Shown here in pieces: positions 21,682-54,022 of a DNA stretch of 64,000 nucleotides. Origin of the DNA: Sphingomonas sp. (GTDB lineage Bacteria; Pseudomonadota; Alphaproteobacteria; Sphingomonadales; Sphingomonadaceae); the NCBI RefSeq assembly GCF_025353885.1, contig NZ_JANXNX010000068.1, positions 1 through 64,000 of the forward strand. Reading direction: 5' to 3'. Within the stretch, counting starts at the first letter, position 1, and each line of letters begins with the position of its first letter. The position numbers and the translations under genes were made by a program. Under the pieces are notes generated by a model. That model was given only the letters and a program-made list of their open reading frames with translations. It did not search any database and was not told the DNA's origin.

Positions 21682-21742
21682 TCCTGCCTTTCGTCGTCTA
21701 CGTGAAAAATGATCTGCCCAGTGCTGGGCGAAAAAGCCTCTG

Positions 21743-21949
21743 ATTCGAAAAATTGCTTTACTTGGCTTCATGATCTGCCTGGCGGCAAGCAACCGCTTTC
21801 GCCTGACGCCGCGTCTCGATGCGGCGACTAAGGGTGATGAGACCAAAATGGCCTTGGCAGCTCTGCAGCGCAGCATTGTAGCCGAGGCTTTTTCAGCCGT
21901 GCTTATCGTTGAATTGGCTGTCTGGCTGGCACGCTTTAACCGCCCGCTT
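21743..21949 (+). pseudogene. C-terminal fragment of a CopD-like copper membrane protein
   Basis: The translated segment KIALLGFMICLAASNRFRLT, followed by a loop and ALQRSIVAEAFSAVLIVELA then VWLA, has the layout of the last two membrane helices of CopD (helix, NRFRLTP, ALRRS, helix). No upstream part of copD exists before it, since a different gene and its terminator precede. It is thus a 3-prime remnant. The neighbouring cation exporter and distant merR-like gene suggest a former metal-resistance cluster. Confidence 0.55.
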
Positions 21950-33575: not shown

Positions 33576-34226
33576 ATGTCTGACCGCGCTCCTGCGCTTG
33601 CGCAAGATCGCCTCGCCATTCGCGAAGCGATCGATAATTGGATGATCTGGCGCGACGGGGGCGACTGGGACCGGTTCGCGACGGTATGGCATCCTGAGGG
33701 CCGCATGCAAACAACATGGTTCCAAGCGAGCGGCGCTGAATTCGTGACGCGAAGTCGGCTTGCATTCGAGACAGGCATCACCGTACTCCACCTGATGAGC
33801 GGTACGAGCATTGATGTTGTGGGTAACCGCGCGATCTCGCAAACGCGCAGCACGATCATGCAACGCGGCGCGATCGACGGGGTCGAAGTCGACGTCTCGT
33901 GCCATGGTCGTTTCTGGGATGCCTGGGAACGCGTTGGCGATGTATGGCTGTTAAGGTTGCGTCAGCCGATTTATGAGATCGACCATCTAACGCCGCTCGA
34001 CCCGGCGGCTGTATTGAAGCTAGACCCGACATTGCTGGGTTCGTTTCCAGTCGGCTATCGCCACTTGGCCTATTTACAAGCCAAGCTCGGTTTCGACGTC
34101 ATCAAATCGATGCCGGGGACGCATGGGCCTGAAACCGCGCACTTACGCGTCCGGGGGCAAGCGTGGCTGGATGGAACCGATGCAAGCTGCCTGACCGCAA
34201 CGCATGAGTTTGCCCAATGCGCCTGA
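33576..34226 (+). CDS. NTF2-like (SnoaL-type) protein with C-terminal extension
   Basis: 216 residues from ATG 33576 behind GGAGAGATTA; an earlier in-frame start lacks a ribosome site. Residues ~1-140 form an NTF2/SnoaL-like cone (DRLAIREAIDNWMIWRDGGD, FATVWHPEGRMQTTWFQASG, GRFWDAWERVGDVWLLRLRQ). The 80-residue tail is not part of the usual fold. Members include small hydratases, isomerases and dehydratases. Its end overlaps the decarboxylase-like gene by 10 bp, so the two probably act in the same pathway. Confidence 0.75.
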   Translation: MSDRAPALAQDRLAIREAIDNWMIWRDGGDWDRFATVWHPEGRMQTTWFQASGAEFVTRSRLAFETGITVLHLMSGTSIDVVGNRAISQTRSTIMQRGAIDGVEVDVSCHGRFWDAWERVGDVWLLRLRQPIYEIDHLTPLDPAAVLKLDPTLLGSFPVGYRHLAYLQAKLGFDVIKSMPGTHGPETAHLRVRGQAWLDGTDASCLTATHEFAQCA

Positions 34227-35251
34227 TCGCAACCGAAGAAGCATTCGCTCCGCTTGAGTATATTTCGGAATACCTCAAGCTGGGCGCGCGCATCGACAGC
34301 GCCGCATCGCGCTACCTCTCGATTTATTACCAGCAGGATGAAGCGGTACGCCAACTGACGGACCTCGATTATCGTTTAGCCGAGATGGACCGGTTTCACG
34401 TCGATATGCATGTACTTAGCATCACCGGACCTGGCGTCCAGGCGTTCGATGCCGATCTCGGTAGCGAACTGGCGATCGTGGCGAACGACATGCTGGCCGA
34501 CGCAATTAAAAAGCACCCAACACGTTTTGCCGGACTTGCAGCAATCGCCCCTCAGGATCCCGCACGCGCCGTCCGCGAGATTAACCGCGCGATCGGTGCG
34601 CTGAAGCTAAATGGCATCATTATCAATTCGCATACATACGGCGAGTATCTCGACGATCCAAAATTCTGGCCGATTTTCGAGGCGGCGGTTGCGCATGACG
34701 TCGCCATTTATCTGCATCCCACCTTCCCATCCGATGCGATGATCGCGCCTTACGCCGATTACGGCATGATGGGCGCATTGTGGGGATTCGGAGCAGACAC
34801 TTCGATGCACGCCGTTCGGATGATCATGGGCGGCGTATTTGACGCATTCCCGACGCTGCAGATTGTGCTGGGACATCTCGGGGAAGCAATTCCGTTTTGG
34901 CTGGGGCGGCTTGACAATCGCTATGCCAATATCGTGCGACGCGGCGGGCTGGGGCCGTTAGGTATGAAGCAGTTGTTGCGTCTGCCGAGCGAGTATTTTC
35001 GGGACAACTTCCACATTACGACAAGCGGGATGATGACCGACCAGCCTCTTGATTTCTGTCTCGGGCTGCTGGGCGATGACCGCGCGATGTTTGCCGTTGA
35101 TTATCCTTATGAGCAGACGGCCGAAGCCGTACCGTTTTTCAGGGCTGCTCCCCTCCCCGATGCCACGCGTCGCAAGCTTGCGCACGAGAATGCCGAACGG
35201 CTGTTCCATATCACGCCAGCACCGCCGCTGTTCGACAGCAGCGCAACGTGA
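34217..35251 (+). CDS. Metal-dependent decarboxylase of the amidohydrolase family (LigW/gamma-resorcylate type)
   Basis: 344 residues. The start RLIATEEAF, His167 (IYLHPTFP), His220 (VLGHLGEAIPFWLGR) and Asp295 (MFAVDYPYE) match the metal-binding Glu, His, His and Asp of LigW, gamma-resorcylate decarboxylase and ACMSD. The TEEA start is like LigW rather than the E-x-H of other members. These enzymes remove carboxylate from aromatic acids without oxygen. Substrate here unknown. Translationally coupled to the NTF2-like gene upstream. Confidence 0.83.
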   Translation: MRLIATEEAFAPLEYISEYLKLGARIDSAASRYLSIYYQQDEAVRQLTDLDYRLAEMDRFHVDMHVLSITGPGVQAFDADLGSELAIVANDMLADAIKKHPTRFAGLAAIAPQDPARAVREINRAIGALKLNGIIINSHTYGEYLDDPKFWPIFEAAVAHDVAIYLHPTFPSDAMIAPYADYGMMGALWGFGADTSMHAVRMIMGGVFDAFPTLQIVLGHLGEAIPFWLGRLDNRYANIVRRGGLGPLGMKQLLRLPSEYFRDNFHITTSGMMTDQPLDFCLGLLGDDRAMFAVDYPYEQTAEAVPFFRAAPLPDATRRKLAHENAERLFHITPAPPLFDSSAT

Positions 35252-35375
35252 AGGCGCCCGAGATTGAGCGACTGAGGCATTATTTATGGGCACGGGCGCG
35301 CACCGTATGCGGGGGCGATTTGTGGCGCCGCATATTGACGGCAGCCCCGCTGGCCGAAGCTTGAGGGAGAAGAAC

Positions 35376-36149
35376 ATGCCAAAGCGTCTCATCACCGCCG
35401 CGTTCGCCGCGTCCATGCTTGCCGGGTCCGCCGCGGTCGCGCAGACGGCGACCTTACCCGTTGTTCGTCCTCCCTCGCAGCTAAGCTGGTACGGCGACCC
35501 CTCCGCGCCCGATATAAGCGGCGTGTGGATCCGCAACAAAGCCGCCGCGACCGGCGCTGGGGTAAGTAAGGAAGGCTGGCTGCCGTGGCCACCACCACTC
35601 AAGCCAGAGCTCGCCGACGTGTGGAAAAAGCGCGTCGCCGACAACGCCGTGGGCAAACGCACGGATGATCCGGTGCGCGCCTGCCTGCCACCGGGAATGC
35701 CGCGCTTTATTACCGGGACGAACGGGCCGATGCAGATCATCCAGACGCCGGGGCGCGTGACGCTTTACCGTGATGGCATTCCGGTGCGACGGGTGTGGAC
35801 CGACGGCCGTGCGCAACCAGCGGCCAAAGACCTTGAGGATTTTTCGAACGGCAACGCAGTCGGCCGCTACGTCGGTCCCGAACTTGTCACCGACTTGATC
35901 GGGGTGAAGGACTATCCGATCGACGGAACGGGCGTTCCGCACAGCCCATCGTTGAAGATCGTCGAGCGCTATCACCGCATCGACGCAAAGACCCTCCGCG
36001 TTACGGTGACTCTGACCGATCCGCTTGCCTATACCCGGACAATGACGAGCGTCACTACCTATACCGCGCTCGACGATCCCCATTGGGAACCGCGCGAGTT
36101 CATCTGTACGCCATCTACGAACTACTATCCCGATAAATACGTCCGCTGA
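35376..36149 (+). CDS. Secreted protein with GDPSAPDISGVW motif, unknown family (copy A)
   Basis: 257 residues from ATG 35376 behind GAGGGAGAAG; the 30 residues upstream in the open frame are not counted. A signal peptide ends at VAQ. Shared with 51688-52518: YGDPSAPDISGVWI, CLPPGMPRF (there CLPFGLPN), QTPGRVTLY (QTPGQVTIY), VWTDGRAQP (IWTDGRPHP), and the later pattern of TL-R/H-VTLTD. Single Cys in the CLPPG loop and one near the C-terminus. I do not recognise a characterised family. It stands between a decarboxylase and DUF6152/cytochrome genes. Confidence 0.7.
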   Translation: MPKRLITAAFAASMLAGSAAVAQTATLPVVRPPSQLSWYGDPSAPDISGVWIRNKAAATGAGVSKEGWLPWPPPLKPELADVWKKRVADNAVGKRTDDPVRACLPPGMPRFITGTNGPMQIIQTPGRVTLYRDGIPVRRVWTDGRAQPAAKDLEDFSNGNAVGRYVGPELVTDLIGVKDYPIDGTGVPHSPSLKIVERYHRIDAKTLRVTVTLTDPLAYTRTMTSVTTYTALDDPHWEPREFICTPSTNYYPDKYVR

Positions 36150-36186: not shown

Positions 36187-36555
36187 ATGAATCGCAAGGC
36201 AATCCAGGGCGCCGTCCTGGCGACGGTGGCACTGTCCGCATCCGCCAGCGCGCACCATTCGTTTGCAATGTTCGACAAGGCCCGCGAAATCGAACTGAAG
36301 AATGTGACGGTCAAGGACTGGCAGTGGACCAGCCCACATACTTGGCTGTTCGTCGTCGCGGCTGACGGGACCAAGTACAGCATCGAGGGCGGCAATCCGG
36401 GCGTCATGCGCCGTATGGGCTTTGCCAAAGGCACGATCGCTGCCGGTGACAAGCTGACGGTCTACATTTCGCCACTTAAAAACGGCGAGAAAGGCGGCGC
36501 GATCAATGCGGTGCGTCTGCCCAACGGCAAGATACTTGGCGAGCGTTTGAAATAG
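36187..36555 (+). CDS. DUF6152 family secreted protein
   Basis: 122 residues, AAGGAG before the ATG. The signal peptide ends at SASA. The mature part begins HHSFAMFD and has WQWTSPHTWLFVVAADG and LTVYISPLKNGEKGG, the DUF6152 pattern. The N-terminal His-His after cleavage and the later His could bind a metal ion such as copper (inference). It sits 37 bp after copy A of the GDPSAPDISGVW family. Confidence 0.82.
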   Translation: MNRKAIQGAVLATVALSASASAHHSFAMFDKAREIELKNVTVKDWQWTSPHTWLFVVAADGTKYSIEGGNPGVMRRMGFAKGTIAAGDKLTVYISPLKNGEKGGAINAVRLPNGKILGERLK

Positions 36556-36556
36556 G

Positions 36557-36853
36557 ATGAAGCGCGGCAGGGTGTACTTCGCCTTGTTATTAGCGGGTGC
36601 CCCTGCCGTTGCTGCCCCGCCACCGCTCAATGGCGACACCGGAATGCCAAACATTTCGGCGCTCTGGATTGAGGTATGGCGATGGAGTTGGTCAAGATTG
36701 TGCGCGATGGCCCGTGTGCGCAGAGGTTCGCTGACGGCGGCATTTGCCCGTTGCCGACCCGGCCATCGAAACGCAGCTGAGAGGGGAGTTGTCCAGTCGG
36801 TGCAAGTCGAGGGCATTGGCATCGTTGCAAACACCGTCACTGACAAACACTGA
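36557..36853 (+). pseudogene. Truncated third member of the GDPSAPDISGVW family
   Basis: Starts one base after the DUF6152 stop. The first ~40 residues are a signal peptide (YFALLLAGAPAVAAPPPL) followed by GDTGMPNISALWI, which lines up with GDPSAPDISGVWI of copies at 35376 and 51688. The rest is Arg-rich and unrelated, and the body of the family is missing. Looks like a deletion remnant that still lies in the operon. Confidence 0.45.
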
Positions 36854-36926
36854 TAACCGTTGCCGCAACCCGTGCGGAACCGTTGATCGTTTGACGCAGA
36901 CATTCACGACTGGAAGCGCGATTGTC

Positions 36927-37679
36927 ATGAACCGAATGCGTAATCTCTGGCTGACAGGCGTCGCGGCGGCGATCGCGATTGCCGCCGTTGCCGCTAGCCA
37001 AGCGAGCAACCGCGCCGGCCGCGACGCGCTGATGCGTGCGGACCCCGAGCGTAGTCTCGCCGATCCCCGGCTCGCACCGGTTGCTCTTCGCATCGGTCGG
37101 ACGCAGTTTGCAGACCATTGCGCATCATGTCACCAGGACGGTCGGCCCGACCGTGGGCGCGGTGTTCCCGACCTCACCGATGGCGAGCACCTTTATGGCA
37201 CAGGCAGCGTCGCCGAAATCGAGCAGATTGTGCTTTACGGCATTCGATCGGGCAGCCCGCGTGGCTGGAACCTGGCAGCGATGCCCGCCTATGCGAGCGC
37301 CAAGCCGTCGGCTAGCGAGCCGGTTCCGGCTATGACTCCGCGGGCGATTGCCGACGTTACTCAGTATCTGATGCAGCGCCGAGGCAACCCGGCCGACGCA
37401 CCGGCTGCCGGACGCGGTGCAATTCTGTTTGCGGGCAGCGGTGGCTGCTGGGATTGTCACGCCGCCGACGGTGGCGGAAATGACGCGATCGGCGCTCCAA
37501 GCCTCATCGATGACGTCTGGCTCTATGGCGATGGCTCGGCGGCGAGCATTGCGCGGTCGATCGCCTACGGGCGTCATGGTTTCAGTCCGGCCTTCAAATC
37601 GAAGCTGTCGCCGGTGGAAGCGCGCGCGGTCGCGGTATATGTCGCGTCGCTGTCCCAACCGCAAAGGATTGCCCGATGA
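36927..37679 (+). CDS. CcoP-like diheme cytochrome c
   Basis: 250 residues from MNRMRNLWLTGVAAA, a signal or membrane anchor. Two CxxCH sites at 65-69 (CASCH) and 174-178 (CWDCH) lie in domains typical of CcoP of cbb3 oxidase (GVPDLTDGEHLYGTG, APSLIDDVWLYGDG). The first heme has Met119 (AAMPAY) as a likely axial ligand, but the second domain reads GRHGFSPAF where CcoP has GRxGxMPAW, so its Met is replaced by Ser. No ccoN/ccoO is present. Overlaps the chaperone gene by 4 bp. Likely a periplasmic electron carrier. Confidence 0.82.
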   Translation: MNRMRNLWLTGVAAAIAIAAVAASQASNRAGRDALMRADPERSLADPRLAPVALRIGRTQFADHCASCHQDGRPDRGRGVPDLTDGEHLYGTGSVAEIEQIVLYGIRSGSPRGWNLAAMPAYASAKPSASEPVPAMTPRAIADVTQYLMQRRGNPADAPAAGRGAILFAGSGGCWDCHAADGGGNDAIGAPSLIDDVWLYGDGSAASIARSIAYGRHGFSPAFKSKLSPVEARAVAVYVASLSQPQRIAR

Positions 37680-38581
37680 GCGTTATCGACGGCGCCCCCG
37701 CCAATGCTTGGGCATTAAGCGAACCGAGCGCACGACGCTCGCTGATACTCTGCGGAATCGGCGCGCTTTTTGGCCTCGCGATTGCCGGACTTGGGCTGTT
37801 TACCGCCCATGGCACACGCACCAGTGGAGTCGCCGCGGAAAACGTCGCGACGGTCAATCAAGTACCAATTCTAATGAGCGATTTCATTCAGCAGCTTCGC
37901 GCGGTCGACGATGTTTCGCTGGCGGAGGCGACACGACCACAAAAGCAGAAGGTCCTTGCTGACATGATCCGCGAAGAACTTTATGTTCAACGCGGCATCG
38001 AGCTCGGCATGCAAGCCGATACGATCGAAGTGCGAGCCGCCCTGACCGGATCGGTAGAGGCGCAGAGCGCTTCCGATGCAACGATGGCACAGCCGAGCGA
38101 AGCTGAGCTGCGCTCTTGGTACGACAGCCATAGCAACGACTTTGCCGACGAAGGCAGGCTTGCCCTCGCCGATTACGTCTTGCCGGCCACATCTACGCCA
38201 GCCCGGATAGCAGCTGCGCGAAACGCACTGATCGCGGCGCGCGGCAACGAAGCAATCGAAGGCCGCGCCTCAACTAGATCGTCACTGATGACACAGGGCG
38301 AGGAGTTTTATTTCGCCGCGCGCATCCATCTCGGCGACCGGCTCTTTGCTGCAGCGCGAGCGATGAAACCGGGCGCAGTTTCGGTGCCGATCATATTGCC
38401 CGATGGCATTCACCTCATCGTTGTCCGTAGCAATGTCCAACCTGTGCCGCCGCCCTTTGAAAAAGTCCGCGACCGGGTGCTCAGCGCGCTGGTCGCAGCG
38501 CAGACCAAATTGCTCACCGCAGCCAACGAACGCTTCCTGCACAAGCGCGCCGACATCCAGGTCGCGAGAGGCTTCGAATGA
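37676..38581 (+). CDS. Membrane-anchored periplasmic peptidyl-prolyl isomerase (SurA/parvulin type)
   Basis: 301 residues. Membrane anchor ~23-46 (SLILCGIGALFGLAIAGLGL), SurA-like chaperone helices (QKQKVLADMIREELYVQRGI) and a C-terminal rotamase region (HLGDRLFAAARAMKPGAVSV, DGIHLIVVRSNV). It would help fold exported proteins of the operon. Starts by ATGA overlap with the cytochrome gene and its end overlaps the HupE-type gene by 4 bp. Confidence 0.8.
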   Translation: MSVIDGAPANAWALSEPSARRSLILCGIGALFGLAIAGLGLFTAHGTRTSGVAAENVATVNQVPILMSDFIQQLRAVDDVSLAEATRPQKQKVLADMIREELYVQRGIELGMQADTIEVRAALTGSVEAQSASDATMAQPSEAELRSWYDSHSNDFADEGRLALADYVLPATSTPARIAAARNALIAARGNEAIEGRASTRSSLMTQGEEFYFAARIHLGDRLFAAARAMKPGAVSVPIILPDGIHLIVVRSNVQPVPPPFEKVRDRVLSALVAAQTKLLTAANERFLHKRADIQVARGFE

Positions 38582-39768
38582 TACGCGTGCTGCTGACGAT
38601 CGTGCTGCTCGCTTGGGCGGCACCCGCGTTCGCGCACACGCGCAGCCAGTCACACAGTACATGGACGATTGACGGGCCCAACGTCCGCATGAGCTTCAGC
38701 GTCGCCGACACCGAGACGATTAGGATCACGCCCGCCGGGCTTCGGCCCGACAACGCCGCGTTCCTTGCTTATTTGACGCCGCGCCTTGGCGCGACGGCAT
38801 CGGGTGTCCCCTGCAAACTGATCGGGGAGCCGCACATGCTCGCAGCAGCCGCCGGGTTCCGTCGTGCCGAATTGCAGTTCCTCTGTTCTTCCGGCAACAG
38901 ATTGCGGCTGATCGACATCGCCTTCTTCGATGCCATTCCGACGCACATCAACTTTGCCCAGGTGCAACGCCCCGATGGCGATTTCATCGAACAACTAATC
39001 ACCGCCGACGACCAAGGTCTCGACCTCGCCGATGCCGATGGCAATGGACTGGCCACCGCCAGCTTCATCCGCTTTGTCGGCATGGGTGTCATGCACATCT
39101 TCACCGGCATCGATCACATCTCTTTCCTAGTCGGGCTGGTGCTGATTTCGCGACGCACGAAAGACCTCGTCTTCGTCATAACCGGTTTCACGCTTGGTCA
39201 TAGCCTTACGCTCGCACTTGCAGTCACCGGGATCATCCGTCCGCATGCCGAGTTTATCGACGCGCTTGTAGCGCTGACTATAGCGTTGATCGGTGCCGAA
39301 AACGTGGGACTGGCATCCAAACGCCCTGGCACGGTGGCGCTCTTTACCGGGCTCGCGCTCGCCGTGATGGCGGGGCTGCGCTTGGCGGGCATCGGCCTCC
39401 TGCCGCCACTCCTGTTGATCGGAGCAGCAATATTTTCGGTCAACTACTTGTTGATTTCGGGGTATCTGCGCGACGCTGGGCGGCTCCGCCTGGTCGTGAC
39501 GCTCGTCTTTGGGTTGATCCACGGCTTCGGTTTTGCCGCCGATCTACTTGAAAGTCGCTTGCCGACCGAAAAGCTCGCAGAGATTCTCGTAGGATTTAAC
39601 GTCGGCGTGGAGGCCGGCCAGTTGAGCGTCGTGCTGGTGTTGATCGGCTTGGTGGCAGTATTGCGCCGCTACGGGCTTGCACTGCCGCGCCCGCTTGTCG
39701 TTGATTTTGCCGCCGCAGCGCTGGTCGGGGTCGGTACCTATTGGTTCGTCGGGCGCAGCTTCGCCTGA
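38578..39768 (+). CDS. HupE/UreJ family membrane protein with periplasmic domain
   Basis: 396 residues. Signal peptide (to FAHT), a ~150-residue periplasmic domain and a membrane region with the HupE/UreJ motif GMGVMHIFTGIDHISFLVGL and TGFTLGHSLTLALAVTG, six or so helices and LVFGLIHGFGFAADL. HupE proteins are linked to nickel or cobalt uptake, but many relatives lie beside cytochromes and chaperones with unknown role. Last gene of the operon; overlaps the converging MarR gene by 31 bp. Confidence 0.85.
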   Translation: MIRVLLTIVLLAWAAPAFAHTRSQSHSTWTIDGPNVRMSFSVADTETIRITPAGLRPDNAAFLAYLTPRLGATASGVPCKLIGEPHMLAAAAGFRRAELQFLCSSGNRLRLIDIAFFDAIPTHINFAQVQRPDGDFIEQLITADDQGLDLADADGNGLATASFIRFVGMGVMHIFTGIDHISFLVGLVLISRRTKDLVFVITGFTLGHSLTLALAVTGIIRPHAEFIDALVALTIALIGAENVGLASKRPGTVALFTGLALAVMAGLRLAGIGLLPPLLLIGAAIFSVNYLLISGYLRDAGRLRLVVTLVFGLIHGFGFAADLLESRLPTEKLAEILVGFNVGVEAGQLSVVLVLIGLVAVLRRYGLALPRPLVVDFAAAALVGVGTYWFVGRSFA

Positions 39769-43847: not shown

Positions 43848-46232
43848 TTGCGCAGTTTCCTTTTTGCGACGACAGCTTTCATTGCATGTACAGCAGCAGG
43901 TGCAGTCCAGGCTCAGGGAACGACAAGTGGCACTCCCACGGTCACTTCACCCGACGGTACTGACCCGGCAAGCACCGGTCTTGCGGACATTATCGTGACG
44001 GCACAGCGCAAGGTTGAGACTGCGCAAAAAGCGGCAGTTGCCATCAGCGTAGTCGGCGGAGCCGATATCGTTCGCGGTGGTGTCGCCAATGTGACCACGC
44101 TGAGTTCGCTGGTCCCAGCCCTGACCATTCAGCAGATCGGCGCGTCGAACGCATCGTTCATTCGCGGTGTCGGAAACTTTTCGGTCTCCGTAACGAGCGA
44201 TCCCGCCGTCGCCTTCAATTACGACGGTGTGTATCTGGGCCGCATCAATTCGACATCGGGTACGTTTTACGATCTCGAGCGCATCGAAGTGCTCAAGGGC
44301 CCACAAGGCACATTATACGGGCGCAACGCCACGGCTGGTGTGATTAACATTCTGCCTACGCAGCCCAAGCTTGGCGAAACTTCGGGCTATGCCACAGCCT
44401 CCTACGGCAACTTCAACGACCTCGCGATAGAGGGGGCGGCCAATATCGCACTTGGCGAAAATGGCGCGATGCGCGTGTCTGGCGCTATCCACAATCGCGA
44501 CGGCTACAACAATGACGGCACCTCCGATAATAAGTCTGATGCCCTCCGAATTCAGTTGAAAGCACAGCTTACCCCACAGCTTATGGTGCGGGTGTCGGGG
44601 GATTACACCCATCTGGGCGGCCGCGGAGGCAGTTGGAGTTATCTCGGACGCTACACGGCAACAACGTTCACACCGTCGGGCCTGTCCCGCTCGGAAGGGG
44701 TGAATTCACCTGCGTCGCAGGCTTATTTTCAGGCGCTTGGCGCCGGTGCGATCGGGCAGGTTCGTGCGCGGCGCGACCCCTTCCCTCAGATTTTTCAGAA
44801 TAGCGATTTTTTCGGTACGAACGCGGTAGTCGAATATGATACCGGCGCGGGCGTATTGACGCTTGAGCCTGCGATCCGGTTCGATCGGATCCGAAATCTT
44901 AACCCGGCAGGCGGGTTCCCGTCGAACAACGACCAGCGCGATCTCCAGTATTCGATGGAGGCCCGGTTCGCCGGCAAAATCGGGCTATTTGACTACACGC
45001 TGGGCGGTTTCTATTTTAATGAGGATGTATCGTTACGCGGCGACACAACTACTTTTGGCAGCAACGCGAGCTTTAATACGACAAGCCAGAAAACTGATTC
45101 CTATGCGTTTTTCGGGCGAGTCACCGCTCATCTTACAGATAAGCTGCGTCTTGTCGGCGGTGTCCGGTATACTCACGACACAAAGACTCTCGATGCCAGT
45201 CGGATCGCGATCTCAGTTAACTGTAGTGTACCCTTCACGTGCATAAATACGATCCTTCCACCGTCCGTACCGTACCTAAGTCAGTTGCCCTTCGCGGTGC
45301 CGGCAGGGAACGGCCAGGTGGTTCCCGGCCCCGTTGCGGGTACAACGGTCAGCCGCAGCGACACTGTATTTGTCAGGCGGTCCACATTCACGCATCCCAC
45401 CTATCGCGGCGCTGTAGAATTCGACGTTGGCCCCAGGTCGCTGCTTTACGCCAGCGTCGAGACTGGCTTTCGTTCGGGTGGCTTTAATACAGCGGTAGGG
45501 TTTGAGACATTCGAACCTGAGTTTATAACAGCATTCACGCTGGGGTCGAAGAACCGCTTTTTTGACAACCGCCTGCAAATCAATCTGGAGGGTTTTTATT
45601 GGAAATATCGCAACCAGCAGACCGCGCATCCAGGTTTTGACCGCGGCCGCCCACCGAGCGCCAACAGCATTACGGAAAACATCGGAAAGTCGACGATCAA
45701 AGGCTTTGAGGTGGAAACACGCTTCCTGTTGACGCCAACCACTGTGCTCGGTGCCGACGTGCAATATCTGGATGCCGTCAATGATAGCTTTACCTACTCG
45801 ACATCCGCGGCGCTACAGTCTCGTACCGGGTGCCCGACGGCAGCTTCGGTCCCGGCGACGATCCCAGCTAGCATCGTCGTTAATTGCGCGGGTCTGCCAT
45901 CCTTCAATTCGCCGAAATGGACCGTGAACCTGTCGGCGCAGCAGACGGTGCCCGTCGGTAATTATAAGCTCGTGCTCAACGCCGACACCCAGTACAAGTC
46001 ATCGCGATTCATGGGCTTTGAATACCAGCCCGAGCAGTTGCAGTCGGCCAGTTGGACAAGCAACGCACAGATAACCTTCAGTCCCGAAAACGATCGCTGG
46101 TCGATCGGCGCGTATGTCCGCAACATCGAAAACAAGCGCCTGCTTGCTGCGCCATTTGCCTTTGGTGGTGTCCTGGTTGCATATACAACTGCACCAAGGA
46201 CCTACGGCGTGCGCGTTGCGGCCAAATTCTGA
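43848..46232 (+). CDS. TonB-dependent outer-membrane receptor
   Basis: 794 residues. TTG start supported by AGGTAGGGG 7-15 bp upstream. Signal peptide to VQAQ, TonB-box region DIIVTAQRKVETAQKAAVA, plug with VLKGPQGTLYGRNATAGVIN, barrel ending YGVRVAAKF. The stop overlaps the MFS gene start (TGATG). With an AAHS-type importer next, the pair probably brings one compound across outer and inner membranes. First gene of a nine-gene run. Confidence 0.93.
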   Translation: MRSFLFATTAFIACTAAGAVQAQGTTSGTPTVTSPDGTDPASTGLADIIVTAQRKVETAQKAAVAISVVGGADIVRGGVANVTTLSSLVPALTIQQIGASNASFIRGVGNFSVSVTSDPAVAFNYDGVYLGRINSTSGTFYDLERIEVLKGPQGTLYGRNATAGVINILPTQPKLGETSGYATASYGNFNDLAIEGAANIALGENGAMRVSGAIHNRDGYNNDGTSDNKSDALRIQLKAQLTPQLMVRVSGDYTHLGGRGGSWSYLGRYTATTFTPSGLSRSEGVNSPASQAYFQALGAGAIGQVRARRDPFPQIFQNSDFFGTNAVVEYDTGAGVLTLEPAIRFDRIRNLNPAGGFPSNNDQRDLQYSMEARFAGKIGLFDYTLGGFYFNEDVSLRGDTTTFGSNASFNTTSQKTDSYAFFGRVTAHLTDKLRLVGGVRYTHDTKTLDASRIAISVNCSVPFTCINTILPPSVPYLSQLPFAVPAGNGQVVPGPVAGTTVSRSDTVFVRRSTFTHPTYRGAVEFDVGPRSLLYASVETGFRSGGFNTAVGFETFEPEFITAFTLGSKNRFFDNRLQINLEGFYWKYRNQQTAHPGFDRGRPPSANSITENIGKSTIKGFEVETRFLLTPTTVLGADVQYLDAVNDSFTYSTSAALQSRTGCPTAASVPATIPASIVVNCAGLPSFNSPKWTVNLSAQQTVPVGNYKLVLNADTQYKSSRFMGFEYQPEQLQSASWTSNAQITFSPENDRWSIGAYVRNIENKRLLAAPFAFGGVLVAYTTAPRTYGVRVAAKF

Positions 46233-47626
46233 TGACATTGGATAGGCAGGCGCCAGTGACGATCGATCTCGACACCCTGGTCGATGGGCGGCCCGTACAG
46301 GTGTCCACTATACTGTTGATTGTCATAGCGGCGCTCGCGCTCATCAGCGACGGTTTCGATTTAGCAGCCATGGGCTATATCGCGCCCGAGTTGTCGAAGG
46401 AATGGCATCTCGCACAGGGTGCCTTGGTTCCTGCATTCTCTGCCGGCATTATCGGAATGATGATCGGTGGCCCGCTGCTCGGCTATCTTGGCGACAGATA
46501 TGGGCGAAAGCGCATAATTGTGCTCGGTCTGACCGTTATCGGCCTCACCACGCTGGTCACGATGGGGGCGACTTCGGTCACGCATTTCGTCGTGCTACGC
46601 TTTATAACAGGCGTGGGGCTTGGCGGCGTCATTCCTAACGTCGTCGCACTGGTCGCTGAATTGACCCCGCGCCGGACGCGGGGACGACTGATCGTATTGA
46701 TCACCCTTGGCATCGTTCTGGGGATTGCGCTTCCAGGCTTGCTCGGGGCCGCGTTGGTCCCCCTTTATGGATGGCGGGTTCTTCTCGTCATTGGGGGAGT
46801 TCTGCCACTCGCAATCGCGTTGATTTCTGTTTTCGTGCTACCCGAAAGTATCAAATACCTTCTGGTCCGTGGCGATCGCAACGATCGTGTTCGAGAGCTT
46901 GCTCGTCTGCTCCGACCCGATCTCGCTATTGATCCCGACGCCCGCATCACGATCGCCGCGACCGTGCCGTCGACATCGCGCGGATCGACTTCGGCGTTGT
47001 TTGCTGGACCATTTGCGCTGATCACGCCGTTGCTTTGGATCTGCCAGGCAGCCAACCAGATGGCCAATTTCTTCTCGCTCACGTGGCTGCCGACGTTGCT
47101 GCAATCGAGCGGGGCGACAACGGCGCAAGCAAGTACAATCGCGGCCCAGTTTTCGCTTGGAGGGTTTTTGGGGGGCATCGTCATGATGTTCATCATTGAC
47201 CGGCTTGGCGTTGTGCCACTGGTCATACTTTTTGCGCTTGGCTGCCCGCTGGTTGCAGCGATGGTTTTGCCCGGCTTGTCTCCGGTCATGCACGCGCTGG
47301 TGATAGCGGGTGCGGGTTTCTGCGTCGTGGGCGTGCAATGTGGCATGACGGGCCTTCTCGGCGTCCTTTATCCAACCCCAATCCGCTCGCTCGGCACAGG
47401 CTGGACGCAGTCCGCAGGCCGTCTTGGGGCACTTGCCGCTCCGGTGGTGGGTGGGATTTTGCTCGGCATGAATTTGCCCGCCCAGGAACTCACTCTCGCG
47501 CCCGCTTCGTTACTCGCTGTCGGTGCAGTTGCCAGCGCAGCGCTCGCCTGGGCGTGCTGGCGCCATTTCGGGGGCGTTCATGTGAGCGAAGTCATTGTCT
47601 CCCCAATCGAAGGACATCGTGCGTGA
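46232..47626 (+). CDS. MFS transporter, aromatic acid:H+ symporter (AAHS) type
   Basis: 464 residues from ATG 46232, overlapping the receptor stop. Twelve membrane helices. The first helix has ALISDGFDLAAMGYIAP, the DGFD motif needed in PcaK-type carriers, and the loop 2-3 motif GYLGDRYGRKR is present. AAHS members import aromatic acids with protons. Its stop overlaps the next gene's GTG by 4 bp. Confidence 0.9.
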   Translation: MTLDRQAPVTIDLDTLVDGRPVQVSTILLIVIAALALISDGFDLAAMGYIAPELSKEWHLAQGALVPAFSAGIIGMMIGGPLLGYLGDRYGRKRIIVLGLTVIGLTTLVTMGATSVTHFVVLRFITGVGLGGVIPNVVALVAELTPRRTRGRLIVLITLGIVLGIALPGLLGAALVPLYGWRVLLVIGGVLPLAIALISVFVLPESIKYLLVRGDRNDRVRELARLLRPDLAIDPDARITIAATVPSTSRGSTSALFAGPFALITPLLWICQAANQMANFFSLTWLPTLLQSSGATTAQASTIAAQFSLGGFLGGIVMMFIIDRLGVVPLVILFALGCPLVAAMVLPGLSPVMHALVIAGAGFCVVGVQCGMTGLLGVLYPTPIRSLGTGWTQSAGRLGALAAPVVGGILLGMNLPAQELTLAPASLLAVGAVASAALAWACWRHFGGVHVSEVIVSPIEGHRA

Positions 47627-48540
47627 TCAAATCTCTTCTCATTGGCGGCCTGCTTGCGACGTCGAGTGTGGCGATCGCTCAGGAGCGGCCGGGCCCGCCG
47701 CAAGTGCTCATGGTCAAGCCGCTCCGTGGCGGGGCCTATTGGATCGAGGGGGGGCGCGCCAACACCGGCTTCATCGTCGGTAAAACGAGCGTAATCGTCA
47801 TCGACGCCGAGATGAGCCCCGATATGGTCAAGCAAGAGCTGGCGGCAATCGCTAAACTCACTGACAAACCGATTTCCACAATTATCGTCACGCACGCCGA
47901 TCCAGATCACGTCGCGGGCGTTCCGCTCTATCCGGCGGCCGCGCGGCTGATCGAACACGAGAACACCTGGAGCGAAGTGGTTGCGTCATCAAACGATCCG
48001 ACCGGGGGACCACTGACTAGCGTGTACAAGCGAGTGGTTACCCACAAACCATCCCACACGATCGCCGGAAATGAGACGGTCACCCTAGATGGCGTCAGAA
48101 TACAGCTTATCCATATCGCCCCCGCGCACACCAGCGGCGACTTGATTGTCTATCTTCCGGCTCAAAAGATTGTCTACGCGGGTGACGTTGTAACGACCAA
48201 CCTCGGGCGATTCCCTGTCATTCATTTCGGGGGCTCTTCGCTTGGCTGGATCGCCACAATGAAGGCGATGCTCGCCCTTGACGCTACGACTTATGTTGGG
48301 GGCCACGGCAGCCTGGAGACAAAGGCGCAGCTTGAAGCGCGCGTTCATGATGCCGAGGAACGACGTGCGGCGGTCAAAACCATGGTTGAGCAAGGCAAGT
48401 CACTCAGCGACGTAGAGACTGCGTTGCCCGAACCCGGTGCCAACCCAATGTTTTTCAGTTTCACTCGGACCGTCTTTGACGAGCTGACGAAGGGCTATCC
48501 GCCAGCGAGCCCGCCTTGGACCAACATCGTCAAACATTAG
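47623..48540 (+). CDS. Periplasmic metallo-beta-lactamase-fold hydrolase with altered metal motif
   Basis: 305 residues from GTG 47623 (overlaps the MFS stop as GTGA). A signal peptide ends at AIAQ. The fold shows GFIVGKTSVIVIDAEMSPDM, the metal motif THADPDH at 90-96, a later AHTSGDL, AGDVV and VGGHGS. The usual motif is HxHxDH; here position 93 is Asp instead of the second His. Substrate unknown; could be an ester, lactone or thioester in the periplasm. Confidence 0.83.
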   Translation: MIKSLLIGGLLATSSVAIAQERPGPPQVLMVKPLRGGAYWIEGGRANTGFIVGKTSVIVIDAEMSPDMVKQELAAIAKLTDKPISTIIVTHADPDHVAGVPLYPAAARLIEHENTWSEVVASSNDPTGGPLTSVYKRVVTHKPSHTIAGNETVTLDGVRIQLIHIAPAHTSGDLIVYLPAQKIVYAGDVVTTNLGRFPVIHFGGSSLGWIATMKAMLALDATTYVGGHGSLETKAQLEARVHDAEERRAAVKTMVEQGKSLSDVETALPEPGANPMFFSFTRTVFDELTKGYPPASPPWTNIVKH

Positions 48541-48566
48541 AGTAATTGTCAGTCAGGAGAATTCCC

Positions 48567-49205
48567 GTGCTTTCGACCCGCCTCATCCTCGCAGCCGCAA
48601 CTTTATCCATTGTCGTTCCCGTTATTGCGCAGACGTCGACGCCGGCCCCTGCCCCTGCCGGTCCTCCCGGTGCACCGGATGCCAGCCGCGTTGTTGCAGG
48701 CAGCTACAAAGTGGACGTCAACCACACGCAAGTGGTTTGGACCCTAGACCATCTCGGTATTACTCCATTGACAGGTGCGTTTGGCGCAAGCAGCGGCACG
48801 CTCGAGATCGATCCCTCGAAATTATCGGCCGCGAAGGTCAACGTCACCTTTAATATTGCCGACATCGCAACAACGTCAAAAGGCTTTACTGAGCATTTGC
48901 TCAAAGCCGATCTGTTCGATGTGGCGAAATTCACGAACGCTAGTTTTACATCGACCGCGGTTGTGACCAACGGAACGTCGGCCCGCGTGTCAGGCAATCT
49001 CACGATCAAAGGGATTACCAAACCGGTAACGCTCGACATGAAATTCTACGGCGCGGGTGCGAACCCATTGAGCAAGAAGTTGCAGGTTGGATTCTCCGGT
49101 ACCGCGACAATTCAGCGCAGCGACTTTGGCCTCGGTTATTCGGTCCCGCGGGTCGGGGATGCAGTGATGCTGAGCCTCGTCGGCGCGTTTGAAAAAATAG
49201 GCTAA
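48567..49205 (+). CDS. YceI family periplasmic protein
   Basis: 212 residues from GTG 48567 behind CAGGAGA; signal peptide ends at VIAQ. The YceI lipocalin-like barrel begins VVAGSYKVDVNHTQVVWTLD and includes LLKADLFDVAKFTNASFTST and LTIKGITKPVTLDMKFYGAG. YceI proteins bind isoprenoid quinone-type lipids. The next gene carries another YceI domain fused to cytochrome b561. Confidence 0.88.
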   Translation: MLSTRLILAAATLSIVVPVIAQTSTPAPAPAGPPGAPDASRVVAGSYKVDVNHTQVVWTLDHLGITPLTGAFGASSGTLEIDPSKLSAAKVNVTFNIADIATTSKGFTEHLLKADLFDVAKFTNASFTSTAVVTNGTSARVSGNLTIKGITKPVTLDMKFYGAGANPLSKKLQVGFSGTATIQRSDFGLGYSVPRVGDAVMLSLVGAFEKIG

Positions 49206-49233
49206 TAAGGCTGCTCAGGCCACTGGAGCATTT

Positions 49234-50556
49234 GTGCCCTCGCTTACCCCCTCCCCCTCCACTGTTGCTACGCGGTACACCACTGTAGCGATCGTTCTTC
49301 ACTGGCTAATCGGTGCGCTCCTTCTTTTCGAAGTCGGTCTGGGCTTGCGCATGGAGGGCGCGCATGGAGCGGCGCGCTTCGCCTCGTTCCAGCTCCACAA
49401 GTCGATCGGGATAACGATATTGTTGCTGGTGGCGCTGCGGTTGGTCTGGCGGTGGCGCAACACCCCGCCGCCGCTGGTTCATAGCGGCTGGGAGCGCGCG
49501 TTAGCAGGCGGCGTCCATATTCTCTTCTACGGCCTTTTGCTGGTAATACCGTTCAGCGGCTGGCTCATCGTTTCCTCAAGCCGCATCGTCGTGCCGACAC
49601 TGCTCTACGGGGCAGTCCCATGGCCGCATCTGCCGGGATTGGACACTCTGCCCGCGGCAGCCCGCGATAACTGGAATGCTGTTGGCAAGTTCGCTCACCA
49701 CAATGGCGTCTATCTGATCTACGCTCTGTTCGCTCTCCATCTGGCTGGTGTTGTTAAACATCAGTTCGTCGATCGAGACGGTGATTTGGCGCGCATGGCG
49801 CCTGGCATCGCGCCGGGAGTTTGGCGCGACCCGCGCCTGATTGGCATCGTCGTAATCGCGATATTGGCCGTCGGGCTGGGCCTGCAATGGCTACCCATAA
49901 CCGGAACCGTAGTAAGCTCCCAAGTCGTGGCCAGCCCCGCTGTGACGTCGCCGCTTTCGAGTAACTTGGTAACCGACCCTAAAAAGGATGTCCCTGCCCC
50001 GATCGATGAGGACGCAACTCCCATTATTGGCAACACAAGTAGCGCTGAAAAAGCATCGACATCGCCGAATTGGAAGATTGCGCCCGGCTCGACATTACGG
50101 TTCACGACCAACTGGTCGGGTGACGCCATTGTGGGAAGTTTCTCGAATTTCGACGGCAACATCAGCTTCGACCCCGATCATCTTGATACCGCGCACGTCG
50201 AAATCCGTATCCCGCTTAATTCAGCCTCCACAGGTGATGCTCAACGTGACGAGACCCTAAAAAGCTCGGAATGGTTTGCGGCTTCGACATTTGGCACCGC
50301 GGTGTTCAAGGCAGACCGTTTTCGTAAGGCGGGCCGTGGTTATGTCGCGAGCGGCTCGCTTACGCTGAAAGGTAAAACACTCCCGATTACACTACCATTC
50401 ACGTTGACGATCAATGGCGACAAAGCGGCCATGCAAGGCACGGCGACGGTCGATCGTACCGCATATAAAATCGGTGAGGGCGAATATGCAGGGACAAGCG
50501 AAATTCCGGCTTCCGTTGGCGTGACCGTCAACGTTCATGCGATCCGGGGGGATTAG
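49234..50556 (+). CDS. Cytochrome b561-YceI fusion protein
   Basis: 440 residues from GTG. Residues 15-185 form a four-helix b561 with heme-ligand His candidates 23 (VLHWLIGALLL), 55 (QLHKSIGI), 155/156 (KFAHHNGVY) and 169 (FALHLAGV). One more membrane segment is at 197-215. A periplasmic YceI domain spans ~280-440 (WKIAPGSTLRFTTNWSGDAI, FVDGN-type FSNFDGNISFDPDHLDTAHV). b561 moves electrons from the quinone pool; the fused YceI could present a quinone or lipid. Such fusions exist in proteobacteria but their reaction is unknown. Confidence 0.9.
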   Translation: MPSLTPSPSTVATRYTTVAIVLHWLIGALLLFEVGLGLRMEGAHGAARFASFQLHKSIGITILLLVALRLVWRWRNTPPPLVHSGWERALAGGVHILFYGLLLVIPFSGWLIVSSSRIVVPTLLYGAVPWPHLPGLDTLPAAARDNWNAVGKFAHHNGVYLIYALFALHLAGVVKHQFVDRDGDLARMAPGIAPGVWRDPRLIGIVVIAILAVGLGLQWLPITGTVVSSQVVASPAVTSPLSSNLVTDPKKDVPAPIDEDATPIIGNTSSAEKASTSPNWKIAPGSTLRFTTNWSGDAIVGSFSNFDGNISFDPDHLDTAHVEIRIPLNSASTGDAQRDETLKSSEWFAASTFGTAVFKADRFRKAGRGYVASGSLTLKGKTLPITLPFTLTINGDKAAMQGTATVDRTAYKIGEGEYAGTSEIPASVGVTVNVHAIRGD

Positions 50557-50674
50557 CTTTGGGTATCGCCTGCAGCCAGGGGGCATCTTAAATCGGTCGC
50601 CATGCACCTTAGGATCGCGGTCAGAAATATAACGATCATCGGCTTGATGACGAAAACAGGATTGGAGCGACAGG

Positions 50675-51178
50675 GTGTCCACGATGGCCACTATCAGCGA
50701 ATGGCTCGCGGCGACATCGGTCAGCGTAGCGGTCTCCGGCGCGCCGTGGGTGATACCCACCGTGCAAAGCATCCATATTCTTGCGATCGCGATCGTTCTT
50801 TCGTCCGTCGCAATGCTCGATTTGCGCCTCGCAGGGTTTATCGGACACGAACGCCCGGCGCGCAGCACCGCACTTCGCACCTATCCATGGATATGGTGGG
50901 CACTCATCGTGCTAGTGACCACCGGCTTGATCATGATCATGGGCGAGCCTGAACGCGAGCTTCGCAATTGGATTTTCTGGACGAAGATGACACTGATTGT
51001 TGCTGCGGTCGTCGTCACGATGCCGGTCCAACATATGCTAGATGAGCGTCCTTATCGCGACCACGCTCGTGCACAGCGTCTTAAAATCAGAGGCTTAGCG
51101 CTTCTCTCCTTGGTATTCTGGGTGCTCGTCGTCGTGTGCGGCCGCTGGATTGCTTATGCGGGAGAGAACTCGCTGTGA
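50675..51178 (+). CDS. DUF6644 family membrane protein (first copy)
   Basis: 167 residues from GTG 50675, placed 8 bp after GGAG. TISEWLAATSVSVAVSGAPW followed by four membrane segments, including HILAIAIVLSSVAMLDLRLA and WALIVLVTTGLIMIMGEP, typical of DUF6644. Function unknown. Overlaps the second copy by 4 bp. Confidence 0.75.
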   Translation: MSTMATISEWLAATSVSVAVSGAPWVIPTVQSIHILAIAIVLSSVAMLDLRLAGFIGHERPARSTALRTYPWIWWALIVLVTTGLIMIMGEPERELRNWIFWTKMTLIVAAVVVTMPVQHMLDERPYRDHARAQRLKIRGLALLSLVFWVLVVVCGRWIAYAGENSL

Positions 51179-51663
51179 CCTTGCTCGATCTTTGCACTTC
51201 ACTCGAAGCGAGCAGTGTGGGTTCTGCGATTAGCGAGTCCGAATGGCTATTTCCAGCCATTGAAACCATCCATGTTCTTGCGCTGACGCTCGTTATAGGG
51301 TCGATTGCGATGCTCGATTTGCGATTGCTCGGTGTCTCGTCGCGCGACCGGGGTGTCGTGGCGCTGGCTGCGGAAACGCTCCCGTGGACGTGGGCCGCAT
51401 TTGCGATAGCCGCCATCAGTGGCTCGTTGATGTTTGTGTCCGCAGCGACAAAATATTATGGCAACACGCCGTTTCGCATCAAAATTATCCTGCTCGCGCT
51501 TGCCGGGGCCAACATGGCAGTCTTTCACTTTACGGCATATCGGCGCGTCCATCATTGGACTGAAGCAGTACCCACGCCGATCGCCGCACGGACAGCAGCG
51601 ACGCTTTCGTTGATATTCTGGATTGGTGTCGTTTTCGCAGGTCGCTGGATCGGCTTTGTTTGA
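51175..51663 (+). CDS. DUF6644 family membrane protein (second copy)
   Basis: 162 residues from GTG 51175, overlapping the previous stop as GTGA; the longer frame upstream has no support. It shares the pattern of its neighbour: SAISESEWLFPAIETIHVLA, TLVIGSIAMLDLRLLG, KIILLALAGANMAVFHF and WIGVVFAGRWIGF. The two copies may form a heteromeric membrane unit (inference). Confidence 0.75.
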   Translation: MTLLDLCTSLEASSVGSAISESEWLFPAIETIHVLALTLVIGSIAMLDLRLLGVSSRDRGVVALAAETLPWTWAAFAIAAISGSLMFVSAATKYYGNTPFRIKIILLALAGANMAVFHFTAYRRVHHWTEAVPTPIAARTAATLSLIFWIGVVFAGRWIGFV

Positions 51664-51687
51664 CGATGTGCAATAGAGGAGCCTGAG

Positions 51688-52518
51688 ATGAAATATAGGA
51701 CGAAGATCGCCGGGTTGACCTTGTTGTCCATGGCAATCAGCACGCAGGGGTTGGCGCAGACCCCTCCGGCGGCGCCCACAAAAACGGTTGAGCGCAGTAT
51801 CCGATTTTATGGAGATCCTTCAGCACCCGATATTTCGGGGGTTTGGCAGGGCACGGCCATGGGGATACCCGGCGAAGGGCCGGTGTCGAATTCGGGCCGC
51901 ACCGCCGACGGTAGCCCGCCCATCTATTGGGCGCCTTGGCCACTGCCCTACACTCCGGAATTTCGCAAAGTTTTCGAGGAACGCCTGGCCGCGACGAAGC
52001 GTGGCGTCGCGCTTGGCGATACTGGCGCGCGATGCCTCCCGTTCGGGTTGCCCAACATGCTGGCTTCAAAACATTACCCCGATGAATTTATCCAGACCCC
52101 TGGGCAAGTCACGATCTACCCCTTTGGCACCTTCCCCGTGACGATCTGGACAGACGGTCGACCGCATCCCGCCAACTTCGTGTCGAGTTATAACGGGCAC
52201 TCGATCGGCCACTGGGTCGGCGATACGTTGCACGTTGAAACCATTGGCATCCGGGGCAACACACCGCTCGACAGCAATCGCGATGCTCACAGCGACAAGC
52301 TGCGTCTTGAATGGACCATTCGACGTGTAACGCCCGATACGCTGCATCTTCATTTAACGCTGTTCGACGACGGCGCGTTTACCGAGCCGGTGACGATCAC
52401 CAATATTTATCACCGGAAAAACGGCCCGGAATGGGCCTTGCTTGATGACCAGTCGTGCTTCGAGAACAACCAGCACGTTGCACCGCCGCCGACAGCAGAA
52501 GGGTTCACAAAGTTTTGA
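51688..52518 (+). CDS. Secreted protein with GDPSAPDISGVW motif, unknown family (copy B)
   Basis: 276 residues. Signal peptide ends at LAQ. FYGDPSAPDISGVWQGTA, CLPFGLPN, FIQTPGQVTIYPFGTFPVTI and WTDGRPHPAN follow the same order as copy A (35376), and GHWVGDTLHVETIGI is a further conserved block. The C-terminus holds a single Cys in QSCFENN. The stop overlaps the TTG start of the SUMF1-fold gene. Not recognised as a characterised enzyme. Confidence 0.72.
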   Translation: MKYRTKIAGLTLLSMAISTQGLAQTPPAAPTKTVERSIRFYGDPSAPDISGVWQGTAMGIPGEGPVSNSGRTADGSPPIYWAPWPLPYTPEFRKVFEERLAATKRGVALGDTGARCLPFGLPNMLASKHYPDEFIQTPGQVTIYPFGTFPVTIWTDGRPHPANFVSSYNGHSIGHWVGDTLHVETIGIRGNTPLDSNRDAHSDKLRLEWTIRRVTPDTLHLHLTLFDDGAFTEPVTITNIYHRKNGPEWALLDDQSCFENNQHVAPPPTAEGFTKF

Positions 52519-53504
52519 CCCGCGCAGGCATCAGTCTGGTTGCGATTGTTGCGCTTTCAGTGCTCGGGTACACGCCTGCCAGCGCACACGACGATGTGGC
52601 GTGGAAAGCGGAACGCGAAGGGCGCTTCGCCGCTGTAAAGGCGGCACTGCCGCCCCAGGACGCCACCATTGCTACTATCAAATCGAAAACCGCCGCGATG
52701 GTTTCTGCATATCGGGCAGCCCCCGGTCCGGCGCTCCAGCATCCCCCGGTGGTCTGGCGCACCGCGGCGGCGCCCGTCGTCGTGTTTGATACAGCCGTAG
52801 CGCCGCGCATGGTCGTCGTGCCAGCTGGCGAATATACAATCGGTTCGCCAGATACCGAAGCTGGCAGGCAGCATGACGAAAAACGTCGCCGGGTGCGGTT
52901 GAATCGCGCTTTTGCTGTCTCAATGTTCCCGATCACTTATGGCGAATATTCGTGGTTTGTCCACGCGTCCGGACACAAGTCGGCGACGGCATGCACGATG
53001 CCGGACAATGTTTCGGCCAGCGGCGCGCGTGATTGGCTTAATCCCGGTTTCCCGCAAACGCCGCGCAGTCCAGTGACCTGCGTCGCATATGCCGACGCGC
53101 AAGCTTATGTGCGCTGGCTCGCGCAGACGACCGGTCACCGGTATCGACTGCTGTCAGACGCTGAATATGAATATGCTGCACGTGGTGGGACGACCACTGC
53201 GTATTGGTGGGGCGAAGACTTTGCCGCCGGGTGTGCACCGGTCAATTCAGCCGATGCCTGCGACCCCTTTGCGTTCACGGTCCCGCTCGACAAAAGCAAG
53301 GCAAACGCGTTCGGCCTGTTCGACGTCGCAGGGAACGTCGGTTCGTGGACGTCCGACTGCTGGCACGGCAACTGTGCGGCCCGCGTGGTGCGGGGCGGCT
53401 CATGGGCCACCCCTGCGAGCGACTTACGCGCTGCAGCACGGGTGCGCGGTGATGTCCGTGCGACCAGCGCCGACCGCGGGTTCCGTGTCGCTCGCGATCT
53501 TTAG
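52515..53504 (+). CDS. SUMF1/FGE-fold protein lacking the catalytic cysteines
   Basis: 329 residues from TTG 52515, which overlaps the preceding TGA. Signal peptide to ASAHD, helical region, then the SUMF1 domain from ~115: MVVVPAGEYTIGSPDTEAGR, PVTCVAYADAQAYVRWLAQT, YRLLSDAEYEYAARGG, NAFGLFDVAGNVGSWTSDCW and VVRGGSW near the end. Formylglycine-generating enzymes have Cys after GGS(F/Y/W) and in YCxRYR; here this stretch reads ATPASDLRAAAR with neither Cys. No sulfatase gene is near. So a different reaction or binding role is likely. Last gene of the operon. Confidence 0.82.
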   Translation: MTRAGISLVAIVALSVLGYTPASAHDDVAWKAEREGRFAAVKAALPPQDATIATIKSKTAAMVSAYRAAPGPALQHPPVVWRTAAAPVVVFDTAVAPRMVVVPAGEYTIGSPDTEAGRQHDEKRRRVRLNRAFAVSMFPITYGEYSWFVHASGHKSATACTMPDNVSASGARDWLNPGFPQTPRSPVTCVAYADAQAYVRWLAQTTGHRYRLLSDAEYEYAARGGTTTAYWWGEDFAAGCAPVNSADACDPFAFTVPLDKSKANAFGLFDVAGNVGSWTSDCWHGNCAARVVRGGSWATPASDLRAAARVRGDVRATSADRGFRVARDL

Positions 53505-53545: not shown

Positions 53546-54022
53546 TTGAAGTGTGAGGCGGTCAATGGCGCGCAGCAAGTTTTTGGCATCGCGATTTTCC
53601 TACGCGCTGGCGGAGCAGTACCAGTGTCGATGCCTTGGGGCGCCGGCATACTGGACGCATTAAAAGGCCGAACGCTCGACGGCGTTATGGTGAACGTAGA
53701 CGGCGGCGCGCAGCTAAACCTTGAAAGCACAGCACCCCATATTGTCTTATCCAATAAGCTTTGGCTCGGGCACCTATACCTTCTGGTGATGAACAAGCGC
53801 ACTTGGGACAGGCTGGCGAGGCGAGACCGCGATGCGATCCAACGCGCCGCACACACCGCCTATGCAGTGCCGGGTGCCGAAATGGACCGCAGTCTGGTGT
53901 CTCAGCGCGCGGAGTTGGAACAAAGGGGCGCCACGGTGCGAATTCCCGATGCCAATAAACTGGAGCGATGGACGACAACTTCCGCATATCGCAAATTTCA
54001 GGACAAGTGGGTGAAACGATAA
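53546..54022 (+). pseudogene. C-terminal fragment of a TRAP transporter substrate-binding protein (DctP type)
   Basis: About 150 residues resemble the last half of DctP proteins: SMPWGAGILDALKGRTLDGV, LVMNKRTWDRLARRDRDAIQ and RAAHTAYAV. The signal peptide and first half (~170 residues) are missing; the preceding DNA belongs to the SUMF1-fold gene. No dctQ/dctM genes follow. Confidence 0.65.

Follow-up and report, generated by a model that had tools for sequence, protein, structure and literature searches.

A nine-gene operon in a Sphingomonas sp. catabolic island and its candidate DUF6152–GDP–DUF6644 metal unit

A nine-gene operon in the window (the whole stretch of 64 000 nucleotides that was analysed, from a Sphingomonas sp.) was interpreted as one half of a catabolic island for a carboxylated phenolic, the half concerned with uptake and the envelope; its core would be a DUF6152–GDP–DUF6644 metal unit, most likely for copper (estimated probability about 0.6). 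The nesting of the three families across genomes, their fusions, a His pattern in DUF6152 and the resemblance of DUF6644 to CopD led to the unit being read as a metal module of the CopC/CopD kind that includes one more secreted subunit. Together the three proteins would most likely bind a metal ion at the periplasmic side of the inner membrane, with copper the probable metal. Judged from genome sequences, the unit, which is not known to have been described before, is widespread and is repeated across catabolic clusters, several times beside b561-YceI genes.

In the proposed scheme, a compound would be imported by the TonB receptor and then by the AAHS carrier, and would be processed by the cytoplasmic LigW-like decarboxylase and the aldehyde dehydrogenase. 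Periplasmic DUF6152 would hold the metal, most likely Cu, through its mature N-terminal His and a second His. The GDP protein, secreted and probably disulfide-bonded, would dock on DUF6152. DUF6644, a four-segment membrane protein present as an a/b pair, would anchor DUF6152 or exchange metal or electrons with it, and b561-YceI, YceI and the cytochrome c would link the unit to quinol. PF19649, PF20349 and one unnamed family, which lack an assigned function, would be parts of a single machine open to testing, with a predicted metal site and naturally occurring fusions. About one tenth of the sampled Pseudomonadota genomes carry at least the DUF6152 part, and the unit is expanded in the sphingomonads, which are known to degrade aromatic compounds. 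If the reading is correct, periplasmic metal chemistry would be linked to how lignin-type compounds are taken up, a poorly understood step.

The operon and the upstream island

All nine genes lie on the + strand between 43848 and 53504 (Table 1), and the strand and families stated by the sequence-only reading were confirmed with Pfam and NCBIfam. The tight packing that it described also stood; its count of five close junctions was too low, as seven of the eight overlap or are separated by at most 30 bp. The overlaps are 1, 4, 4 and 4 bp (at 46232, 47623, 51175 and 52515), the other gaps are 5, 28 and 24 bp, and the sole wide junction (50556/50675) spans 118 bp. Terminator-like and promoter-like matches were not clearly above those in shuffled sequence; the nine genes are presumed to share a single transcript.

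Table 1. Coordinates and family matches of the operon and island features in the window.
Feature	Position	Strand	Match or remark
TonB-dependent receptor, first operon gene	43848..46232	+	Pfam PF00593 E 2.1e-30, PF07715 E 2.1e-13
MFS carrier, aromatic acid/H+ symport (AAHS) kind	46232..47626	+	TIGR00895; 1-bp overlap with receptor gene
Metallo-beta-lactamase-fold (MBL) protein, secreted, HADPDH motif	47623..48540	+	PF00753 E 4.6e-22
YceI, secreted (polyisoprenoid/quinone-binding lipocalin-like)	48546..49205	+	PF04264 E 2.7e-40
Cytochrome b561 fused to YceI (b561-YceI)	49234..50556	+	PF01292 E 2e-27, PF04264 E 2.2e-29
DUF6644 membrane protein a, 4 hydrophobic segments (hydropathy)	50675..51178	+	PF20349 E 4.1e-16
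DUF6644 membrane protein b	51175..51663	+	PF20349 E 9.7e-12
GDP1, the GDPSAPDISGVW protein, GDP family, secreted, two invariant Cys (family alignment)	51688..52518	+	
SUMF1-fold protein, secreted	52515..53504	+	PF03781 E 1.9e-46; best PDB match 5hha PvdO E 2.3e-40
Amidohydrolase-2 family decarboxylase, LigW-like	34217..35251	+	4icm 5-carboxyvanillate decarboxylase E 6.6e-96
GDP2, second GDP-family protein	35286..36149	+	36% identical to GDP1, residues 13-250
DUF6152	36187..36555	+	PF19649 E 1e-24; predicted mature N-terminus His-His, third His residue 51
GDP gene relic, directly 3' of DUF6152	36557..36670	+	tblastn E 0.003 to L051 gene
Cytochrome c, two c-type domains	36744..37679	+	PF13442, PF00034
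HupE/UreJ-2 membrane protein	38578..39768	+	PF13795 E 3.9e-39; predicted mature N-terminal His, cleaved between AFA and HTRSQ

The MFS carrier scored 319 bits against TIGR00895, below the cut-off of 418.55, this still being its best-scoring family. The nearest NCBIfam to the MBL protein is TIGR04559 (SoxH-related, quinoprotein relay; 107.7 bits, below the cut-off). In the MBL protein HADPDH stands in place of the HxHxDH found in most of the fold, so that one usual zinc ligand would be Asp.

In formylglycine-generating enzymes the catalytic Cys pair sits in the C-terminal RGGS stretch. The SUMF1-fold protein had been described as cysteine-less; it contains six Cys residues, and Cys is absent only from the RGGSWATPASDLRAAAR stretch, where the catalytic pair is therefore lacking. 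It scored 164.4 bits against the PvdO model NF051459 (cut-off 500) and falls outside that family. PvdO, which acts in dihydropyoverdine oxidation (PMC6206403), is its closest solved relative and is likewise periplasmic; unlike in the PvdO context, no pyoverdine genes were recognised around the SUMF1-fold gene. Inspection by eye predicts a mature N-terminal His for this protein as well (cleavage between ASA and HDD). The operon is followed by a remnant of a TRAP substrate-binding protein gene (53546-54022, +), a 158-aa C-terminal piece that covers positions 151-274 of PF03480 and lacks the N-terminal half, with a LysR gene beyond it.

Upstream of the operon the gene order is SnoaL, amidohydrolase-2, GDP2, DUF6152, GDP relic, cytochrome c, PPIase and HupE/UreJ, then MarR and Fe-ADH on the − strand (a divergent pair) and an aldehyde dehydrogenase. 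The LigW-like decarboxylase points to a carboxylated phenolic as the probable substrate. The Fe-dependent dehydrogenase was considered as a maleylacetate reductase and rejected, as no such enzyme was among its best PDB matches. The island resembles the system for uptake and catabolism of DDVA in Sphingobium SYK-6 (ddvT/ddvK/ddvR), where the receptor DdvT and then the carrier DdvK import DDVA (PMC6874591): a TonB receptor, an MFS carrier and a MarR gene likewise lie by aromatic genes, the likeness to DdvT and DdvK being one of gene kinds. The LigW-like decarboxylase also recalls this lignin-dimer system (PMC6874591). Of the DDVA pathway genes ligXa, ligZ and ligY, none was recognised among the window genes by Pfam. 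An alternative oxidase gene (PF01786, E 2.8e-83) is located at 26734-27459 on the − strand.

The DUF6152 gene lies outside the operon, beside GDP2, and its position 7.6 kb upstream, beyond the divergent MarR/ADH pair, weighs against the metal-unit reading. The relic 3' of DUF6152 occupies, by synteny, the position of an intact GDP1 counterpart in two relatives (L051 and L052); the intact GDP1 of the window lies in the operon, an arrangement that links both halves of the island. In L051, a lichen metagenome genome, GDP2, DUF6152 and GDP1 are followed by a fumarylacetoacetate-hydrolase-like gene (assigned by eye), cytochrome c and PPIase, and the cytochrome c gene is kept beside GDP/DUF6152 genes both there and in L035. 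A genome of the same genus (G004) carries an 80% identical amidohydrolase; next come a ferredoxin and a Rieske-type oxygenase, each assigned by eye from its sequence, and then GDP2, DUF6152 and GDP1.

The complete nine-gene set was not seen in any other genome examined; it is thus not a conserved pathway unit, and the operon seems to have been put together locally from modules. Among 15 related genomes there was no full SUMF1 counterpart (the best was a 111-residue stretch, E 3.6e-13) and no close MBL relative (identity 34% at most), and the closest relatives of the operon GDP gene occupy different gene arrangements. The idea that the nine genes form one conserved system or pathway was therefore rejected.

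Distribution of the GDP, DUF6644 and DUF6152 families

Across 399 Pseudomonadota genomes the three families are strictly nested: the 12 genomes with GDP lie within the 29 with DUF6644, and these within the 42 with DUF6152, so that each GDP genome carries both others and each DUF6644 genome carries DUF6152 (Fisher 1.8e-15 and 2.4e-34). Among 151 relatives, GDP was found in 14 genomes, DUF6644 in 14 and DUF6152 in 19; DUF6644 was present in 11 of the 14 GDP genomes (Fisher 7.8e-12) and DUF6152 in all 14 DUF6644 genomes (5.9e-16). These P values ignore shared ancestry; the 399 genomes span many families. The families also adjoin one another, with GDP or DUF6644 within about 1.5 kb in 29 of 30 sampled DUF6152 loci. 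In one locus (L090) a single frame without interruption runs through DUF6152, then GDP, then DUF6644; in another (L087) a single frame encodes DUF6152-GDP with DUF6644 adjoining. Among sequence signs of a physical unit, natural fusion of this kind is the strongest, and it suggests that the proteins form a complex. The sequence-only reading had placed the uncharacterised families together: nesting, adjacency and the two fusions bear this out strongly for GDP, DUF6644 and DUF6152, and the claim fails for all nine genes. The co-occurrence check that it proposed for the GDP family came out positive, with DUF6644 and DUF6152 co-occurring and b561-YceI genes recurring alongside.

DUF6644 is mostly a tandem pair in GDP-bearing clusters and a single gene beside DUF6152 of a second, HHGWS type. 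In L053-L061 this second type always adjoins one DUF6644 gene and GDP is absent; in L060 the two lie beside secDF-resembling genes. A narrow GDP alignment gave two loci in the genome-contig scan, and the viral-contig scans gave no GDP and one extra DUF6152 sequence. No mention of DUF6152 or DUF6644 was found in the literature searched.

Genes for b561-YceI adjoin GDP/DUF6152 in four further genomes (L032, L033, L036 and L037), where a rough estimate by hand gives a chance expectation of less than one case. A cytochrome b561 with a YceI protein protects lipids in Burkholderia (PMC9113575), and this LcoA-BcnA pair, which detoxifies lipid peroxyl radicals, shares cytochrome b561 and a YceI lipocalin with the operon. 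The redox module, called uncharacterised in the sequence-only reading, is thus not wholly so, since its b561-YceI part is of a described kind. Unlike in LcoA-BcnA, b561 and YceI are here fused in one protein, a second YceI is added and both lie inside an import operon. That the redox genes serve solely to protect the envelope from radicals of aromatic breakdown, in the manner of LcoA-BcnA, would suit this arrangement, which limits lipid peroxidation (PMC9113575), and the presence of genes matching parts of the b561-YceI protein in 137 of 151 relatives; it leaves GDP, DUF6644 and DUF6152 uncovered and is distinctly unlikely.

GDP reaches up to 14 copies per genome and DUF6152 up to 10, and the catabolic clusters that contain these copies vary, with P450, FMO-like, PQQ dehydrogenase or COesterase genes among their members. 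Conserved clusters in L065 and L071 contain several GDP genes, a PQQ dehydrogenase, a cytochrome c-PQQ protein, a carboxylesterase, DUF6152 and paired DUF6644. In L067 (5759-10064) a DUF6644 pair lies between protocatechuate 4,5-dioxygenase-subunit-like genes and a LigW-like amidohydrolase.

The GDP family has no Pfam, NCBIfam or PDB sequence match and its fold prediction was poor (pLDDT 59); membership of a known family was rejected. TonB receptor genes are present in about half of the GDP neighbourhoods, which would fit a substrate-specific uptake relay of DUF6152, GDP and DUF6644 from the receptor to the inner-membrane carrier, in which the His residues would be structural or substrate-binding. 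A weak beta-barrel resemblance of GDP to ligand-binding calycins points the same way, in a model of that low confidence. The relay would leave two invariant N-terminal His residues at the cleavage site and the resemblance to CopD unexplained, and we regard it as highly improbable.

Predicted metal site and membrane partner

In all 69 distinct DUF6152 sequences H23, H24, P50 and H51 are invariant, and no further His or Cys is kept. H23 directly follows an AxA-type signal-peptidase site (A/S/G at −1 in 69/69, A at −3 in 58/69), so mature DUF6152 should begin with His-His. In a copper histidine brace, the N-terminal His binds copper through its amino group and ring, together with a second His (PMC10952591). 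With cleavage as predicted, a mature N-terminal His is present in 69/69 DUF6152 sequences and H51, the putative second ligand, likewise in 69/69. At the sequence level such a pattern marks N-terminal-histidine metal sites such as those of CopC and LPMOs, and suggests copper as the metal. PF19649 is the sole Pfam match of DUF6152, which places it outside the CopC sequence family. The AlphaFold model is an OB-like barrel (pLDDT 81, pTM 0.75), and OB proteins head its fold matches, with no match at E < 0.01. The predicted fold is unlike CopC, and residues 1-4, on which a T-shaped brace geometry would depend, have pLDDT < 50; both points count against the metal-unit reading.

DUF4198, DUF6702 and the HupE-linked anglerases were found by a search for N-terminal His and shown to bind metal (PMC12537917); DUF6152 is absent from the main text of that paper. 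Like these signal-strapping metalloproteins (DUF4198, DUF6702, Ang-1 and Ang-2), DUF6152 has a His right after the signal cleavage site, and the HupE protein of the island shares with Ang-1, as reported, a two-part layout and an N-terminal His (PMC12537917). Unlike them, DUF6152 keeps His-His and one more His and is linked with GDP and DUF6644.

A His in the first membrane segment is invariant in 63/63 DUF6644 sequences, as are a Lys, a Trp and a Gly. The CopD profile matched one DUF6644 gene (G430) at 37.2 bits, above the cut-off of 32.1; several others fell below it, and DUF6644 a of the window gave a weak match (E 0.003). Profile alignment with hhalign places the invariant His of DUF6644 on that of CopD with weak scores (E 0.0027 to 0.11; few CopD sequences), so DUF6644 was not taken as a proven CopD. 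We call it a putative remote relative of CopD and not a member of the family. The weak profile comparison, and the location of GDP genes away from DUF6644 in several genomes, also weigh against the metal-unit reading. The unit recalls CopC-CopD and YcnI-YcnJ, in which an N-terminal-His secreted protein likewise stands beside a membrane protein with a conserved first-segment His, and the CopD profile matches some DUF6644 genes. It differs from CopC-CopD in that DUF6152 has no CopC Pfam match and an OB-like predicted fold, in the extra GDP subunit and in its many copies in catabolic clusters.

The same His pattern would suit an enzyme that acts in the periplasm on the imported compound: DUF6152 would serve as the oxidase or oxygenase, with a copper histidine brace, GDP as substrate-binding subunit, and DUF6644 and b561-YceI as the electron supply. 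The multiple copies of GDP and DUF6152 (14 and 10) in different catabolic clusters suit substrate-specific roles over general metal supply, b561-YceI recurs beside GDP/DUF6152, and YceI and cytochrome domains are also found together in the LPMO-linked Cbp2D of Cellvibrio, whose cytochrome domain reduces LPMOs (PMC8981238). HupE-linked N-terminal-His proteins, however, are without substantial oxidase activity (PMC12537917), and DUF6152-DUF6644 pairs that occur in single copy and lack GDP suggest metal handling; the enzyme is a tentative and rather unlikely alternative. Less credible again is its boldest form, in which these would be membrane-anchored copper histidine-brace enzymes of a new family. 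Supplied with quinol via b561-YceI, they would oxidise imported aromatics or terpenoids in the periplasm, and in sphingomonads they would have been amplified into copies each specific for a substrate. For the core itself, metal handling would be as simple an explanation as a periplasmic chemical step: the single-copy DUF6152-DUF6644 pairs speak for handling, and the number of copies spread over separate catabolic clusters speaks for a role tied to the substrate.

Elsewhere in the window, a partial CopD match (21740-21928, +; PF05425 positions 45-105, E 2.6e-10), apparently truncated, lies near a cation efflux gene.
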